Origin: Salinigranum marinum
Lineage (GTDB): Archaea; Halobacteriota; Halobacteria; Halobacteriales; Haloferacaceae
DNA: 64,000 bases
NCBI RefSeq assembly: GCF_024228675.1
Contig: NZ_CP100461.1
Coordinates: 3,655,398-3,719,397, forward strand
Direction of reading: 5' to 3'
Shown here: positions 17,540-24,497 of the stretch, in pieces
How positions within the stretch are numbered: position 1 is the first letter of the stretch
Layout of the letters: each line of letters starts with the position of its first letter
Made by a program: the position numbers and the translations under genes
The notes under the pieces: generated by a model
Databases searched by the model: none
The model's input: the letters and a program-made list of their open reading frames with translations, nothing else
Told to the model about the DNA's origin: nothing

Positions 17540-19474
17540 ATGACAGAACTAGGCGGATTCCAAGATCACGTCGCGCGCGTCGACCTGTCGTCGGGCGACG
17601 TCGCGTACGAGGGCATCGACGACGAGGACGCGAAGAAGTATATCGGCGCGCGCGGGCTGGGCGTCAAGTACGTCTTCGACAACGGGCCGGACATCGACCC
17701 GATGAGCGAGGAGAACCTCATCGCGTTCATGAACGGGCCGCTCACGGGGACGCAGGTGACCATGAGCGGTCGGATCGCCGTCTGCACGAAATCCCCGCTC
17801 ACGGGCACCGTCACCGACTCGCACCACGGCGGCTGGTCGGGCGCTCGCCTCAAGTGGGCCGGCTTCGACGGCCTGCTCTTCGAGGGGAAAGCCGACGGCC
17901 CCGTCTACGCTTACGTCGAGGACGGCGAGGTCGAACTCCGTGACGCCTCCCACCTCTGGGGCAAGGGCGTCCACGAGACCCGCGACACCATCGGCGAGGA
18001 GATCGAGGGCGAGTTCGGCAAGAACCTCTCCGCCATGATGATCGGGCAGGGCGGGGAGAACCAGGTCAAGTACGCCTGCATCGTCAACGAGGACGACCGT
18101 GCGAGCGGGAGAGGCGGCACGGGCTGTGTGATGGGGTCGAAGAACCTCAAAGCGATCGTCATCAAGTCCGGGACGAAGATGCCGAAGCCGAAGGACCCCG
18201 AGACGTTCAAGAAGGGGTTCCAGCAGGCGATGTCGGCCATCCGCGAGTCGGACGTCACCGCCCCGAACGAGGGCGGCCTCTCGGTGTACGGGACGAACGT
18301 GCTGATGAACATCTCCGAGGAGATGGACGGTCACCCGACGAAGAACGGGAAGTACACCTCGTCGCACTCGATGAACGCCGCGGAGGGGACGGACCTCGAC
18401 GCCGAGCGCATCAGCGGCGAGAACGTCCGCGAGAACATCCTCGTCGACGAGCCGACCTGTCACTCCTGCCCCGTGGCCTGCAAGAAGGAGGTCGAGGTCT
18501 CGACCACGGTCAAAGGCGAGGAGATGAACGTCCGGATGGAGTCGTACGAGTACGAGTCCGCCTGGGCGCTCGGAACGAACTCCGGTAACGACGACCGCGA
18601 CAAGATCGCGGTGATGATCGACCGGTGTAACGACGTCGGCGTCGACACCATCGAGGCGGGCAACATGCTTGCGATGGGCATGGAGATGACCGAGAAAGGC
18701 TACCTCGACGAGATCGGCGAGGGGATCGACTGGGGCGACGCCGACGAGATGATCGAGATGCTCGACCGCATCGCCCACCGCGACGGCCCGCTCGCCGACG
18801 CGCTCGCCGGGGGTGCCGCCGGCGCGGCCGAGGAGTTCGACGCCCACGACTGCCGGCTCGACGTCAAGAACGAGACCATCCCGGCGTACGACCCGCGCTG
18901 TATGAAGGGCATGGGCATCGCCTACGCCACCTCCAACCGGGGGGCGTGCCACCTCCGTGGCTACACGCCGGCCGCCGAGATCCTCGGCATCCCCGAGAAG
19001 GTCGACCCCTACGAGTGGGAGGGCAAGGGTGAACTCACCGCGACGTTCCAGGACCTCCACGCCATCTCGGACTCGTTCGACATCTGCAAGTTCAACGCGT
19101 TCGCCGAGGGCGTCGAGGAGTACGTGCTCCAGTACAACGGCATGACCGGCCTCGACGTGAGCGAGGACGAACTCATGCAGGCGGGCGAGCGCGTCTACAA
19201 CCTCGAACGCTACTTCAACAACCTCGCCGGCTTCGACGGCTCCGACGACTCCCTGCCGGCCCGGTTCGTCGAGGGCGACGAGGCCATCCCCGGTCAGGGT
19301 GCCAGCGAGGGCGAACTCTGCGAACTCGACCAGATGAAAGAAGAGTACTACGCACACCGCGGCTGGGTCGACGGCGTCGTTCCCGACGAGAAACTCGACG
19401 AACTCGGCATCGACGTCGGTCCCGGCACCGGCGTCTCCTCGGGCAGCGGTGCGGGCACGCCCGCCGACGACTGA
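17540..19474 (+). CDS. Aldehyde ferredoxin oxidoreductase (tungstopterin, AOR family)
   Basis: AOR-family enzymes oxidise aldehydes to acids with ferredoxin, using a tungsten bis-pyranopterin and one 4Fe-4S cluster. The 644-residue length fits the family. Seen are the N-terminal GARGLGVKYVFD and SHHGGWSGARLKWAGFDGL segments, the pterin-binding region GRGGTGCVMGSKNLKAI near residue 190, the cluster motif CHSCPVAC near 307 with the distant Cys in FDICKFNAF near 516. A disordered Gly/Ser tail ends the protein. Downstream come a DoxX-like protein and, convergent, a rhodanese. The aldehyde used and the true metal are unknown. Confidence 0.9.
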   Translation: MTELGGFQDHVARVDLSSGDVAYEGIDDEDAKKYIGARGLGVKYVFDNGPDIDPMSEENLIAFMNGPLTGTQVTMSGRIAVCTKSPLTGTVTDSHHGGWSGARLKWAGFDGLLFEGKADGPVYAYVEDGEVELRDASHLWGKGVHETRDTIGEEIEGEFGKNLSAMMIGQGGENQVKYACIVNEDDRASGRGGTGCVMGSKNLKAIVIKSGTKMPKPKDPETFKKGFQQAMSAIRESDVTAPNEGGLSVYGTNVLMNISEEMDGHPTKNGKYTSSHSMNAAEGTDLDAERISGENVRENILVDEPTCHSCPVACKKEVEVSTTVKGEEMNVRMESYEYESAWALGTNSGNDDRDKIAVMIDRCNDVGVDTIEAGNMLAMGMEMTEKGYLDEIGEGIDWGDADEMIEMLDRIAHRDGPLADALAGGAAGAAEEFDAHDCRLDVKNETIPAYDPRCMKGMGIAYATSNRGACHLRGYTPAAEILGIPEKVDPYEWEGKGELTATFQDLHAISDSFDICKFNAFAEGVEEYVLQYNGMTGLDVSEDELMQAGERVYNLERYFNNLAGFDGSDDSLPARFVEGDEAIPGQGASEGELCELDQMKEEYYAHRGWVDGVVPDEKLDELGIDVGPGTGVSSGSGAGTPADD

Positions 19475-19609
19475 GCAGGCTCGACCGACCCATTTCTTTC
19501 GACGACCGATCGAGACCAGCTGTCCCTCTCGTTCGGACGATCTTCGGACAGCATCGATGAGGAGCTCAGAGGGTTTTAGCTCGCTGAGACCCTACGATCG
19601 GACACAGTG

Positions 19610-20086
19610 ATGACGGCCAAAGAAACAGAGACCCCGCAGCTATGGCTGAGGTTTCGTGAGCGGGTGGACGCGTTCGACGCGGCCCTCACGTCACTGATGG
19701 ACCGATGGAGTATCCCGGCGCTCCGAGCGGCACTCGGAATCGTGTTCGTCTGGTTCGGTGGGCTGAAAGTACTGGGTGTCTCACCGGCCGCCGACCTCGT
19801 CGCGTCGACGGTGTACGTCGTCCCCGCCGAGCTGTTCGTCCCCGTGCTCGGCGTCTGGGAGGTCCTCATCGGCCTCTGCTTACTCTACCGGCCGCTCACC
19901 CGCCTTGGTCTGCTGCTGTTAGCCCTCCAGCTCCCGGGGACGTTCCTCCCGCTCGTCTTGCTCCCCGACGTCGTCTACGTCACGTTCCCCTACGCGCTGA
20001 CTGTCGAGGGTCAGTACATCATCAAGAACCTCGTGATCATCGCCGCGGCGCTCGTCATCGGCAGCACCGTTCGAGACGAGCCGTAG
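19610..20086 (+). CDS. DoxX-like small integral membrane protein
   Basis: A membrane protein of 158 residues with four hydrophobic segments. The first helix reads LRAALGIVFVWFGGLKVLG, the typical DoxX/YkgB-like opening with a small-residue turn; VPVLGVWEVLIGLCLLYRPL is the second. The ATG at 19610 directly follows an in-frame GTG at 19607 that could also be used. It lies 135 bases downstream of the AOR gene on the same strand. A redox or quinone-related role is suggested only by family and context. Confidence 0.75.
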   Translation: MTAKETETPQLWLRFRERVDAFDAALTSLMDRWSIPALRAALGIVFVWFGGLKVLGVSPAADLVASTVYVVPAELFVPVLGVWEVLIGLCLLYRPLTRLGLLLLALQLPGTFLPLVLLPDVVYVTFPYALTVEGQYIIKNLVIIAAALVIGSTVRDEP

Positions 20087-20155
20087 TCGGGGCGATCTCG
20101 GGTGGAAACGCCCGCAGTTCGACGCGGTCGCGAACGAGAGTGGAGATCCGATCAC

Positions 20156-20180
20156 CGAACGGAGACGCGCTCTCCGTTCG
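20156..20180. terminator. Perfect 10-bp hairpin between convergent genes
   Basis: CGAACGGAGA and TCTCCGTTCG form a perfect 10-bp stem around a 5-base CGCGC loop. It lies midway in the 143-base gap between the DoxX-like gene (+) and the rhodanese gene (-), where a terminator working for both genes would be expected. There is no long T run. Confidence 0.55.
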
Positions 20181-20229
20181 ACACGGCGCTCCGAACCCCG
20201 TCACGGGTCGCGTATCTCGACGCGGGCGG

Positions 20230-20685
20230 CTACTTGTAGTCGCGCTGAGGCACGTCCTCGACCTCGCCGCCCGCCTCCCGCCACGCCGTGAACCCGCCGT
20301 CGAGGTGGGCGACGTCGTCGTACCCCATCTCGCCGAGCGTTCGCGCGACGAGCGCCGACCGTCCGGCCTCGTTGCAGTAGACGACGTACCGATTCGAGGG
20401 GTGGAAGAACGGCTTGTAGTACTCCGTGGAGGGGTCGGCCCACCACTCGATCATCCCGCGCGGCGCGTGTTTCGCGCCGGGGATCCCGCCTTCGATCCAC
20501 GCCTCGCGGATGTCGCGGACATCGAGCAGGACGGGTACGTCCTCCCCGTCCTCTCCGTCCGCGGCGGCGAGTTCCACTTGGAGTTCCGCGACCGTGATCG
20601 TCTCGACGACCTCGTCGGCCGCCTCGGCGAGGTCCCACGCCTTCCGGTCGACCGTGAACGTCGCCTCGGCATCGCTGTCTGTCAT
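20230..20685 (-). CDS. Rhodanese-like sulfurtransferase
   Basis: A single rhodanese domain in 151 residues: VPVLLDVRDIREAWIEGGIPGAKHAPRGMIEWW near residues 50-80, then the active-site loop YVVYCNEAGRSALVARTL with the catalytic Cys near residue 103, and DVAHLDGGFTAWREAGG, the family's C-terminal signature. It can move sulfane sulfur from thiosulfate or persulfide to an acceptor. An extra N-terminal 35 residues (EATFTVDRKAWDLAEAADE) is unusual. The ATG at 20685 is preferred to a longer frame that overlaps the next gene. DoxX-like genes lie on both sides. Confidence 0.88.
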   Translation of the reverse strand: MTDSDAEATFTVDRKAWDLAEAADEVVETITVAELQVELAAADGEDGEDVPVLLDVRDIREAWIEGGIPGAKHAPRGMIEWWADPSTEYYKPFFHPSNRYVVYCNEAGRSALVARTLGEMGYDDVAHLDGGFTAWREAGGEVEDVPQRDYK

Positions 20686-20741
20686 ACCCTCGACAGCGGG
20701 CGCGACCGAAATAACGGTGGGGGCCGACCGACGCCGGGCGC

Positions 20742-21158
20742 TCAGTCGGAGCGAGCCGCCGCGCGGATCGTGACGCTCGCGGCGAGCGCGGCGAGGCCGA
20801 CGTCGCGGACGATGACGTCGACGAACGCACCGCCGGCCAACAGGGCGGCGACCGAGAGATACGCGACCGTCGCGACCAGCGAGAGGGTGACGAACCCGGC
20901 CGCGAACACGGTGTAGCGGTCGGCCAGCAGCGCGAGCGCGAACGGCGGCTCCAGCACGCCGTTGAGGAGCATGAACTCGACGGGCGTCATCGGGAGCAGT
21001 CGGTCGAACGGCGACACGACGTACACCGCCCACGCCTCCGGCGCGAGCAGTTTGTGGATCCCGGCGAGGAGGATGACGAGGCCGATGCCGACCCGTGCGA
21101 GGGGGTCGGCGACGCGCTCACCGCGGGCGAGTGTCCCGACGGCGTCCGTGCTGTCCAT
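20742..21158 (-). CDS. DoxX-like membrane protein
   Basis: The 138-residue protein has four hydrophobic segments. VADPLARVGIGLVILLAGIHKLLAPEAWAVYV near residues 16-47 is the DoxX-type first helix and loop. It precedes the rhodanese gene on the same strand with a 56-base gap, so they may form an operon. It is not closely similar to the 19610 protein, although both are DoxX-like. Confidence 0.75.
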   Translation of the reverse strand: MDSTDAVGTLARGERVADPLARVGIGLVILLAGIHKLLAPEAWAVYVVSPFDRLLPMTPVEFMLLNGVLEPPFALALLADRYTVFAAGFVTLSLVATVAYLSVAALLAGGAFVDVIVRDVGLAALAASVTIRAAARSD

Positions 21159-21209: not shown

Positions 21210-21578
21210 TCACCGCTGTGTGTGCCACCACTCGCGGAACTCGACGCAGTCGCCGCCGAGAAACCGCGCCTGGAGGAGGCCGTCGATCTCGACCGGGTTC
21301 CCCCGGCGGACGAACGACGCGTTGAACCGCGCGAGGCCGTGGTCCCGCCCGAGCGCCTCGACCGCGGTTTCACACGCGATCTCCTCCTGGGTCGCGGTCG
21401 CGTCGGCCCAGTACTCACGGATCGCGCCACGACCCTCCAGCGGCTCGGTGAACGGGGTCTCGTGGTAGGTCGCGTTGTCTGCGAACAGCGACGCCGCCGC
21501 GTCGGCGTCACCCGTCTCCCACGCGGTCGCGTACTCGTCGAGCCAGGCGCGGAACGTTCCGTGGTCGAGTGGGACCAT
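21210..21578 (-). CDS. SnoaL-like (NTF2-fold) protein
   Basis: The 122-residue protein fits the NTF2-like/SnoaL fold: FRAWLDEYATAWETGDADAAASLFADNATYHETPF at the N terminus, EGRGAIREYWADATATQEE, and a C-terminal strand FREWWHTQR. This fold is used by small cyclases, isomerases and ligand-binding proteins; no catalytic residue set is clear. The ATG at 21578 (MVPLDHGTFRAW) gives the normal length. It may lead an operon with the DoxX-like and rhodanese genes, as the gap to the next gene is 51 bases. Confidence 0.75.
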   Translation of the reverse strand: MVPLDHGTFRAWLDEYATAWETGDADAAASLFADNATYHETPFTEPLEGRGAIREYWADATATQEEIACETAVEALGRDHGLARFNASFVRRGNPVEIDGLLQARFLGGDCVEFREWWHTQR

Positions 21579-21678
21579 ACGCGACGTACGGGGACCGGGC
21601 ACAAAAATTGCCACCCGCGCCCGAACCCGTCGTGTGGCGGGGATACGGCCGGAACGGCAGCCGCACGCCACGACGACG

Positions 21679-22011
21679 TCAGTCGTCCTCGTCGAGCAGC
21701 CGGCGGAGCGACTCGTGCGTGCCGACGACCATCGCCGGGACGACGAACATGAAGAGGTGCTCCTCGATGGGGATGCCGAGGAACTCGACGCCGGTCCGGA
21801 GGGGGATGGCGAAGACGCCGACTTCGAGGGTGTACCAGTCCCAGAGGTACGCGAAGGGATAGAGCACGAGCGTCGTCCGGGCCGCCTCTCGAAAGGCGTC
21901 GGCGTACCGGAGGAGCGCGAGCGCGACGGCCCCCCAGAGCAGTTCGGTCGCCAGATACGTGTACGGGCCGAGGACGCCGATGTCGGGGAGCGCGAGCACG
22001 GACATGGTCAC
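21679..22011 (-). CDS. Single lycopene-cyclase (CrtYc/CrtYd-like) domain protein
   Basis: The 110-residue membrane protein holds one lycopene-cyclase domain with three predicted helices and the family signature GIPIEEHLFMFVVPAMV near residue 80 (P-x-E-E-x-x-F). Classical haloarchaeal CrtY is a fusion of two such domains, and bacterial C50-carotenoid cyclases are heterodimers of two single-domain proteins. Here only one is seen. The GTG start at 22011 overlaps the UbiA stop by four bases (GTGA), so it is translationally coupled; an ATG at 22005 is the alternative. Substrate is unknown, probably a carotenoid. Confidence 0.75.
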   Translation of the reverse strand: MTMSVLALPDIGVLGPYTYLATELLWGAVALALLRYADAFREAARTTLVLYPFAYLWDWYTLEVGVFAIPLRTGVEFLGIPIEEHLFMFVVPAMVVGTHESLRRLLDEDD

Positions 22012-22865
22012 GAGAGCGGCCGGAACCAGACGGCGATCACGAGCACGGCGAGGAAGAGGTACGACGCCCTGACCAGGAGCATCGTGGCGAGGCGGTCGTC
22101 GTCACCGGCCCGGCGTGCGACGGCGGCGACGACCCCGAACGCGCCCACGGCCCCGACCGACGACGGGGGGAAGACGCCGCTCCCGGCGAACGCGAGCACC
22201 CCTCCGAGCCCGGCGGCCATGAGGCCGTACGCCACCCCACGGGCGCGGCGACGTCCGAGAACGACCGCGACGGTCCGCTTGTCGATCGAGCGGTCGTACG
22301 CGTAGTCGGTCGCGTCGTCGATCACCTTGATGCCGGCGAGGATCGTGACGAAGACGGCGGCGAACGCGAGCACCGTCACGGACACCGCCCGCGCCTGCAC
22401 GTAGTAGCCGCCGATCAGCGCGAAGCCGATCCCGGCCGGGTAACCGACCGTCGCCGTCACCGGATGCGTGTCGAGCTGTGGGGCGTGGAGGTAGCCGACG
22501 ATCCACCCCGGGAGGCAGAGCAGCGCCGCGACGCCGTCGACGACCACCCCGAGGACGGCGGTTCCGGCGGCGAAGCCGAGGGTCGCGAGGGCGAGCGCGA
22601 CCCGACAGCCGCGCGCGGTGAGCGGGTGGTCGGCGTCCTCCCCCCGGAGGTGGAAGTCGACGTAGCCGTCCTTCACGTGGGCCGTGTACAGCGCGCAGAA
22701 GACGACGAACAGGTGTCCCGCGGCGAGCCCGGCTACGAACCGCCCGGCGAGCACCGCACCGAACGCGGAGGCGGCGAGCGGCGGGAGCATGAACACCGGA
22801 TGGATCTGTGAGGCCAGCGCGCCCAGAACGGCACCGGTCCCATCCCCGTGTCGTGCGATGGACAT
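22008..22865 (-). CDS. UbiA family prenyltransferase
   Basis: The 285-residue membrane protein is a UbiA-superfamily prenyltransferase. The second Asp-rich motif is clear (KVIDDATDYAYDRSIDKRT near residue 180); the first is divergent, with HVKDGYVDFHLRGEDAD near residue 65 where NDxxDxxxD is usual. Around eight hydrophobic segments are present. In haloarchaea members of this family make lycopene elongase products (bacterioruberin), respiratory quinones or archaeal lipids. Coupling to a lycopene-cyclase domain gene favours carotenoid work. The ATG at 22865 is chosen over one 21 bases upstream; a CCACTAGTACG box lies about 25 bases before it. Confidence 0.82.
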   Translation of the reverse strand: MSIARHGDGTGAVLGALASQIHPVFMLPPLAASAFGAVLAGRFVAGLAAGHLFVVFCALYTAHVKDGYVDFHLRGEDADHPLTARGCRVALALATLGFAAGTAVLGVVVDGVAALLCLPGWIVGYLHAPQLDTHPVTATVGYPAGIGFALIGGYYVQARAVSVTVLAFAAVFVTILAGIKVIDDATDYAYDRSIDKRTVAVVLGRRRARGVAYGLMAAGLGGVLAFAGSGVFPPSSVGAVGAFGVVAAVARRAGDDDRLATMLLVRASYLFLAVLVIAVWFRPLS

Positions 22866-23312: not shown

Positions 23313-24326
23313 TCAGTCCTCGGCGGGGGCGATCGCGGCCTGCTCCTGTTCTTCCTCGGAGCGGGCGGCGACGAGCGCACCGCGAGCGACGCTGTAGAGC
23401 GGCTCTTGGGGTGAGCGGACGTCGCTGATCGAGAAGGGGATCGGCGCGTCGCCGAGGTGGTCCGCGAAGAGCTTCTCGAAGCCGTCCGGCGAGGAGGTCC
23501 CGCCGGTGACGACGACGGGGACGTCGAGCCCCTCCTCGACGTCCTCGTCGTCGACCTCCCGGGAGATGTTCTGGATGACGTAGTCCAGCAGGTTCTCGTA
23601 GTAGATGGCGAGTGCGCCCTCGACGCCGCCCACGTCGGTCCTGAAGTCGAGTTCGAAGCCGTCCTCCTTGATCGACGTGACCTTGTCCACAGGCGTACCG
23701 GTCGCGTTCGCGGCCTGTTCGTCGATCCAGTCGCCGCCGCGGGCGATCGAGAACTTCATCACGGGAACCGCGTAGTACGCCAGACAGACGTTCGTCATGC
23801 CCGCGCCGAAGGAGACGCCGAGGCCGGTGAAGTTGTGGTCCGCGAGCTCGGAGTAGATGACCGCCATCCCCTCGTTGATCGGCTCGGGGTCGTAGCCGAC
23901 GTCGCCGAGCATCGACTCGAGCGTCTTCTCGTGGTAGAGCGTGTTGAGCTTCGAGTCGATCGGATCGGCGGGCGACGAGAAGAACAGTCGTTCGCCCTCG
24001 TAGGCGGGTTCGCCGACGACCTGTTCGGTGATGAGCTTGATCATCGGGATCGCCGACGACTCGTCCGACGAGAGGATGCCCTGGCTCATCGGTCGCCGCG
24101 TCTCGCGGTTGAAGATGTTCGCGAAGTTGAGCGCGTCGTCGCCGACGACGTACACCTGGTCTCCCTTCCGAATGTGGAGCACGTCGCTCCGCGAGAGCAT
24201 CTGCTCCGCCATGTCGCTGTACTCGATCTCCACGAAGGAGTTACGTTGTTGGACGAACACGGTCTCGGGGTCGTCCTGCTGACCCGAGATAATGTTCATC
24301 GTACCGACGTCGAGGCCCTTGGCCAT
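23313..24326 (-). CDS. Actin-like protein, salactin/volactin type
   Basis: The 337-residue protein matches the haloarchaeal actin homologues described as salactin (Halobacterium) and volactin (Haloferax), which make dynamic filaments and affect cell shape or division. ASKHA features: phosphate loop 1 LDVGTMNII near residue 5, the second loop [20 protein letters not shown] near 170, and the adenosine motif [16 protein letters not shown] near 290. The C terminus is acidic. The ATG at 24326 (MAKGLDVG) lies after a TATA box (24350-24358). A membrane protein gene sits 171 bases upstream on the same strand. Resemblance to salactin is from memory of the family, so a search should confirm it. Confidence 0.87.
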
Positions 24327-24349
24327 ACCCGCACAACTCTCAGGATTCG

Positions 24350-24358
24350 TGATAAATG
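24350..24358 (-). promoter_or_regulatory. TATA box of the actin-like gene
   Basis: The minus strand reads CATTTATCA, centred about 28 bases before the ATG at 24326. A second AT-rich stretch (24368-24425) lies further upstream, giving the gene its own promoter separate from the upstream membrane protein gene. Confidence 0.65.
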
Positions 24359-24497
24359 GTGCTCTCTCAGTATCATAAGTGAAAATCACCTATGGAGTAC
24401 TACCGATAAACGAAGTACAAAACGATACTAACGGCGGCTCTGGAGCCGGGCACCCCGAGTCGGGTGCGGCCCTCCCGCGGGAGCGAGCCGAACCCAC

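Follow-up and report, generated by a model that had tools for sequence, protein, structure and literature searches.

The window is a stretch of 64,000 nucleotides from the haloarchaeon Salinigranum marinum, whose nearest named relative in this analysis is Salinigranum salinum (81% identity). It contains a gene for a UbiA-superfamily prenyltransferase and, immediately downstream, a gene for a single lycopene-cyclase domain (Table 1). The original prediction that these two genes overlap by four bases was confirmed at the coordinates given; both genes are on the minus strand, and the sequence of the overlap is GTGA. This overlap suggests that the two genes are translationally coupled; use of an alternative ATG start for the cyclase at position 22005 would remove it.

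Table 1. Features of the UbiA–cyclase locus, in window coordinates.
Feature	Position	Strand	Description and basis
UbiA-superfamily prenyltransferase gene	22008–22865	minus	285 aa from ATG; PF01040, alignment, tree, predicted fold of fused homolog
Single lycopene-cyclase (CarR-type) domain gene	21679–22011	minus	110 aa from GTG; TIGR03462, PF18916, alignment, model
Overlap GTGA (UbiA stop and cyclase GTG start)	22008–22011	minus	sequence; a single fused frame in 27/80 relatives

The gene pair and its proteins

We considered a SnoaL-like gene just downstream of the pair (21210–21671, minus strand) as a third member of the operon and rejected it, as it was found in none of the 80 related loci, including that of Salinigranum salinum. 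Also near the pair are a gene for Volactin, an actin-family protein (23313–24389, minus strand; PF25216, 441.8 bits), and a cluster at 17540–21158 consisting of genes for an aldehyde ferredoxin oxidoreductase, a rhodanese, and two membrane proteins of the DoxX/DUF417-like kind.

The UbiA protein scored 36.4 bits against PF01040, narrowly above the cut-off of 34.2. Its first Asp motif had been called unusual, and this proved correct: where relatives have N-x-x-N-D-x-x-D, the window protein has AHVKDGYVDF (H63-V-K-D66-G-Y-V-D70), followed by E76-D77-x-D79-H-P. Relative to the canonical first motif, NDxxDxxxD, the N-D columns are occupied by D-G and the next Asp is retained. Little or no variation in these residues is seen in the alignment of UbiA orthologs, indicating that the altered motif is a trait of the subfamily rather than a sign of decay; with N-D changed to D-G, ordinary prenyl transfer is not assured. 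The second motif, D183-D184-x-x-D187-Y-x-Y-D191 with K196-x-T198, agrees with the DxxxDxxxD pattern, with D183, D187, and D191 invariant among orthologs; both it and the KRT signature are preserved and look like those of MenA. MenA was also the best family-level hint, through a weak match that lay chiefly in the second motif and fell below the MenA equivalog cut-offs (33.7 vs 264 bits and 24.7 vs 102.15 bits).

The cyclase protein scored 46.2 bits against TIGR03462 (cut-off 39.4) and 31.5 bits against PF18916 (cut-off 27), has three predicted transmembrane helices, and contains one cyclase domain rather than the two of a CrtY-type enzyme. This domain aligns with the second domain of a CrtY from the same genome. 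Two motifs, W57-D58-x-Y60-T61-L62 and P81-x-E83-E84-H85, are conserved throughout the orthologs with few or no exceptions; the E83-E84 acid pair (PxEE) is invariant in 16 cyclase orthologs.

Searches of PDB sequences with the UbiA alignment and with the cyclase alignment returned no matches, and Foldseek with the single cyclase domain alone gave no meaningful match. When modelled with AlphaFold (pLDDT 83.7), a fused homolog has a predicted UbiA fold with a cyclase domain of three helices after it. Foldseek with this model matched 8djk_B, 6m31, 7bpu, and 4od5; the best matches were UBIAD1 (top) and DGGGPS structures, at E-values of 3e-5 to 2e-4. These matches of a predicted structure support a UbiA fold for the prenyltransferase of the pair.

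Distribution, fusion, and paralogs

Orthologs were counted in 242 halobacterial genomes, sampled evenly. UbiA matches were present in 189 genomes, with 57–70% identity among the best matches listed, and cyclase matches in 193. The original prediction had implied that such a pair is rare, and the occurrence of orthologs in 63 of the 74 halobacterial genera sampled contradicts this. Three weak UbiA matches and seven weak cyclase matches, with E-values far removed from those of all the others, were set aside; both genes then occurred in 185 genomes, UbiA only in 1, cyclase only in 1, and neither in 55, counts that are uncorrected for shared ancestry. About 77% of the 242 genomes thus have orthologs of the pair. 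A search of 295 genomes from across the phylum yielded no ortholog outside Halobacteria, where just weak UbiA similarity was detected. A control search of Haloferax volcanii found no lycopene-cyclase domain; this would account for the pair not having come to light in the main genetic model.

The arrangement of the two genes varied among the 80 named loci. UbiA and cyclase were fused in one frame in 27, lay within 1.5 kb on the same strand in 8, and lay within about 4 kb in 2; in the remaining 43 (a few of them represented by short stretches), there was no cyclase in the stretch around the UbiA gene. On the gene tree, four changes are needed to account for the fused state, of which well-supported branches force only one. 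In genera in which the pair is variable and its genes are non-adjacent (g24 and g26, for example), both genes are absent together. Because the two genes are often apart, their strict co-occurrence is telling, and fusion together with the joint absence of unlinked genes provides strong evidence that UbiA and cyclase share one function. Thus, natural fusions and near-perfect co-occurrence bear out the predicted coupling of a UbiA protein to a single cyclase domain.

The unlinked UbiA gene often lies between aminotransferase and YchF GTPase genes, and the unlinked cyclase gene lies beside a CBS-domain gene, with trp genes also among its neighbours. As candidate partners, these YchF, aminotransferase, CBS-domain, and trp genes were rejected, since they look like plain synteny; apart from UbiA and cyclase themselves, we saw no neighbours of either gene that reveal a pathway. 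On Haloferax mediterranei pHME505 (L172:3111–4664), a pair-type UbiA gene (57% identical) is followed by one for a DUF998 membrane protein in the place of the cyclase.

The nearest UbiA paralogs are encoded in gentisate-degradation clusters, alongside a cupin that resembles gentisate 1,2-dioxygenase and an AMP-binding (CoA-ligase-type) ligase. A paralog with the same odd Asp motif as the pair UbiA stands divergently beside the AMP-binding ligase gene at four loci (L174, L175, L177, and L235, on plasmids of Haladaptatus, Haloarcula, Halobaculum, and Halorussus); the cluster also has a cupin gene at L174, L175, and L177, which is gentisate 1,2-dioxygenase-like at L174 and L177. In a tree of UbiA proteins from which CrtEb was left out, the pair UbiA and these gentisate paralogs form one clade (support 100/99), apart from LyeJ, DGGGPS, MenA, and CtaB (heme-O synthase), with very long branches between groups that make the group nearest to the pair UbiA uncertain. 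A grouping with lipid or quinone enzymes, named in the original prediction as counting against a carotenoid role, did not cleanly appear, as the pair UbiA falls in a clade of its own; it neither groups with LyeJ nor joins DGGGPS.

Proposed function and competing explanations

We conclude that the pair is a real, conserved, uncharacterised two-part enzyme and not the C50-carotenoid module originally proposed. With a probability of roughly 0.5, UbiA and cyclase together form a single membrane enzyme, specific to haloarchaea, by which an acceptor other than lycopene is prenylated and the chain is then cyclised or hydrated. The Asp motifs of the UbiA subunit would hold a prenyl diphosphate, and this subunit would move the chain to the acceptor, perhaps an aromatic or hydroquinone-type compound. 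The single cyclase domain would be held against UbiA, covalently in the fused versions, and its Glu pair would donate a proton to one of the double bonds in the transferred chain, resulting in ring closure or uptake of water. Catalytic-type residues are invariant in the ortholog alignments of both proteins. We infer that both subunits are catalytic, as well as the order of steps, the acceptor, and the product; our choices of acceptor and chemistry are guesses. A different prenyl substrate for UbiA, which the original prediction allowed, remains the best guess, and the C50 part of that prediction fell away. The gentisate-cluster paralogs and the MenA hint count in favour of such an enzyme, possibly with an aromatic acceptor; the gentisate paralog lacks a cyclase, so its surroundings may not be a guide to the pair. 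A more specific proposal, which we advance only tentatively, is a nearly class-wide haloarchaeal prenyltransferase–cyclase, fused or in two parts, in which a half-cyclase and UbiA would make a cyclised prenyl-lipid, such as a chromanol-like compound or an omega-cyclic prenylated hydroquinone.

The strongest rival to this two-subunit enzyme is that the small domain is non-enzymatic, a cyclase relic that serves as a structural or regulatory subunit of UbiA. A complete CrtY consists of two such domains, and a single one may not form a full active site; the models, moreover, show just three transmembrane helices. Against this, WDxYTL and PxEEH vary little or not at all among orthologs, a conservation beyond the needs of a scaffold, and we consider a purely structural or regulatory role possible but rather unlikely.

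DGGGP synthase adds the second chain of archaeol, a lipid that haloarchaea are expected to make. Canonical DGGGPS (NF009521) had no match at E 1e-20 in the genome of the window and was also absent from 52 others of the 242; the window UbiA itself had no match to the NF009521 model at E 1. The pair UbiA might therefore replace this enzyme, at least in genomes that lack it, and 50 of the 53 DGGGPS-less genomes do carry the pair, with 3 lacking both compared to about 12 expected (Fisher p 0.00035, uncorrected). In one genome (G041), the only other UbiA-family matches are, by score pattern, CtaB, MenA, and LyeJ. Most of the weak extra PF01040 matches in DGGGPS-less genomes do not look like UbiA and were discarded; by eye they were an HtpX-like peptidase, a CstA-like carrier, and MFS-type transporters. 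A further match, in G187, is a paralog of the gentisate type. Against replacement, 136 of the 242 genomes hold both DGGGPS and the pair, the two proteins are not joined in the tree, and the cyclase domain would be left without a role. Furthermore, a complete single-contig genome (G002) lacks both and has UbiA proteins of the CtaB, MenA, and LyeJ types only, indicating that a further enzyme must exist or that the data lack a gene. An ether-lipid role for the pair is thus improbable.

In the C50 reading, UbiA would elongate lycopene and the single-domain cyclase would close the ends, like actinobacterial CrtEb with CrtYe/f. In C50 clusters of the Corynebacterium glutamicum type, the roles of the cyclase subunits are such that two different ones are needed, whereas the pair has one. 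In our sample of 30 genomes, 7 of the 22 that bear the pair have exactly one TIGR03462 domain genome-wide; in these genomes, the domain can have no cyclase partner but itself or UbiA, which leaves no room for a second, hidden subunit. Actinobacterial C50 clusters do combine the protein families of UbiA and the cyclase, as in the crt operon of C. glutamicum (PMC5401885), and lycopene and a C50 pathway exist in the cell. In the genome of the window, however, LyeJ (443 bits on its own family) and CruF are encoded elsewhere, in a crtD-lyeJ-cruF cluster (C1:43689) of a kind whose function is known from Haloarcula japonica, as cited in PMC8305020. Comparison of the pair UbiA and LyeJ profiles with hhalign gave E 0.014 and a probability of 3%, essentially no match, and the two proteins fall in separate clades. 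No carotenoid genes were seen among the conserved neighbours at 80 loci of UbiA and 21 of the cyclase. This genome has two complete CrtY genes (L006 and L008; G000:C1:2723060 and 3189333), each of them, by eye, directly beside a rhodopsin-like gene, and four genomes of the 30-genome sample have CrtY without the pair, which varies independently of CrtY. Thus, the search for crtY, crtD/cruF, and a second cyclase domain suggested in the original prediction turned up carotenoid genes at loci of their own, and a C50 function for the pair is very improbable. A homodimeric lycopene cyclase for beta-carotene or retinal precursors, with UbiA a mere neighbour, is scarcely credible: the domain does belong to a family of lycopene cyclases, but full CrtY stands beside rhodopsin genes and occurs independently of the pair, and strict co-occurrence and fusion with the cyclase make UbiA more than a neighbour.

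No description of the UbiA–cyclase pair was found in the literature searched, and, as far as those searches show, nobody has assigned its isoprenoid product. Two genes that are retained jointly by roughly three in four haloarchaea, are also lost jointly, and often form one protein imply that this product is common. Untargeted lipidomics of Halobacteria annotated 6.9% of the features bearing MS2 spectra and revealed whole networks of taxon-specific unknown lipids (PMC10704169), making such a product both plausible and findable. If the two-subunit enzyme is real, it would show that a lone lycopene-cyclase domain can function alongside a partner whose fold is different.

Comparison with known systems

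The meroterpenoid pairs of UbiA with a Pyr4-like terpene cyclase, as in the zig cluster (PMC13307353), resemble the proposed haloarchaeal enzyme in general logic: UbiA attaches a chain, which then receives a proton from an acidic residue of a small membrane cyclase. The zig cluster holds epoxidising P450s, whereas none is linked to the haloarchaeal pair. MenA/UBIAD1-type enzymes have in common with the pair UbiA the fold, a long spacer in motif 1, and a similar second Asp motif with KRT, but the pair UbiA lies far below every MenA cut-off, and the genome has its own, separate MenA gene with a menC-like gene directly downstream. LyeJ, the haloarchaeal lycopene elongase/hydratase, is likewise a haloarchaeal member of the UbiA superfamily; it differs from the pair UbiA in its clade, in its locus in the same genome, and in its first motif (N-D-V-F-D in LyeJ, D-G-Y-V-D in the pair).

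Outside the pair, the closest protein is the gentisate-cluster paralog (L174, WP_227777479.1, for example), which is 43% identical over 218 residues and has the same H-x-(K/R)-D-x-x-V-D motif. Unlike the pair, this paralog has no cyclase domain and is encoded divergently beside an AMP-binding ligase gene in an aromatic-acid catabolic cluster. The actinobacterial C50 module of CrtEb with CrtYe/CrtYf is alike in coupling a UbiA-superfamily enzyme to single TIGR03462-type cyclase domains. By comparison, the conserved neighbours of the haloarchaeal pair are free of carotenoid genes, its UbiA belongs to a subfamily different from haloarchaeal LyeJ (CrtEb being outside the tree), and it has one cyclase domain instead of two, in many genomes fused to UbiA.
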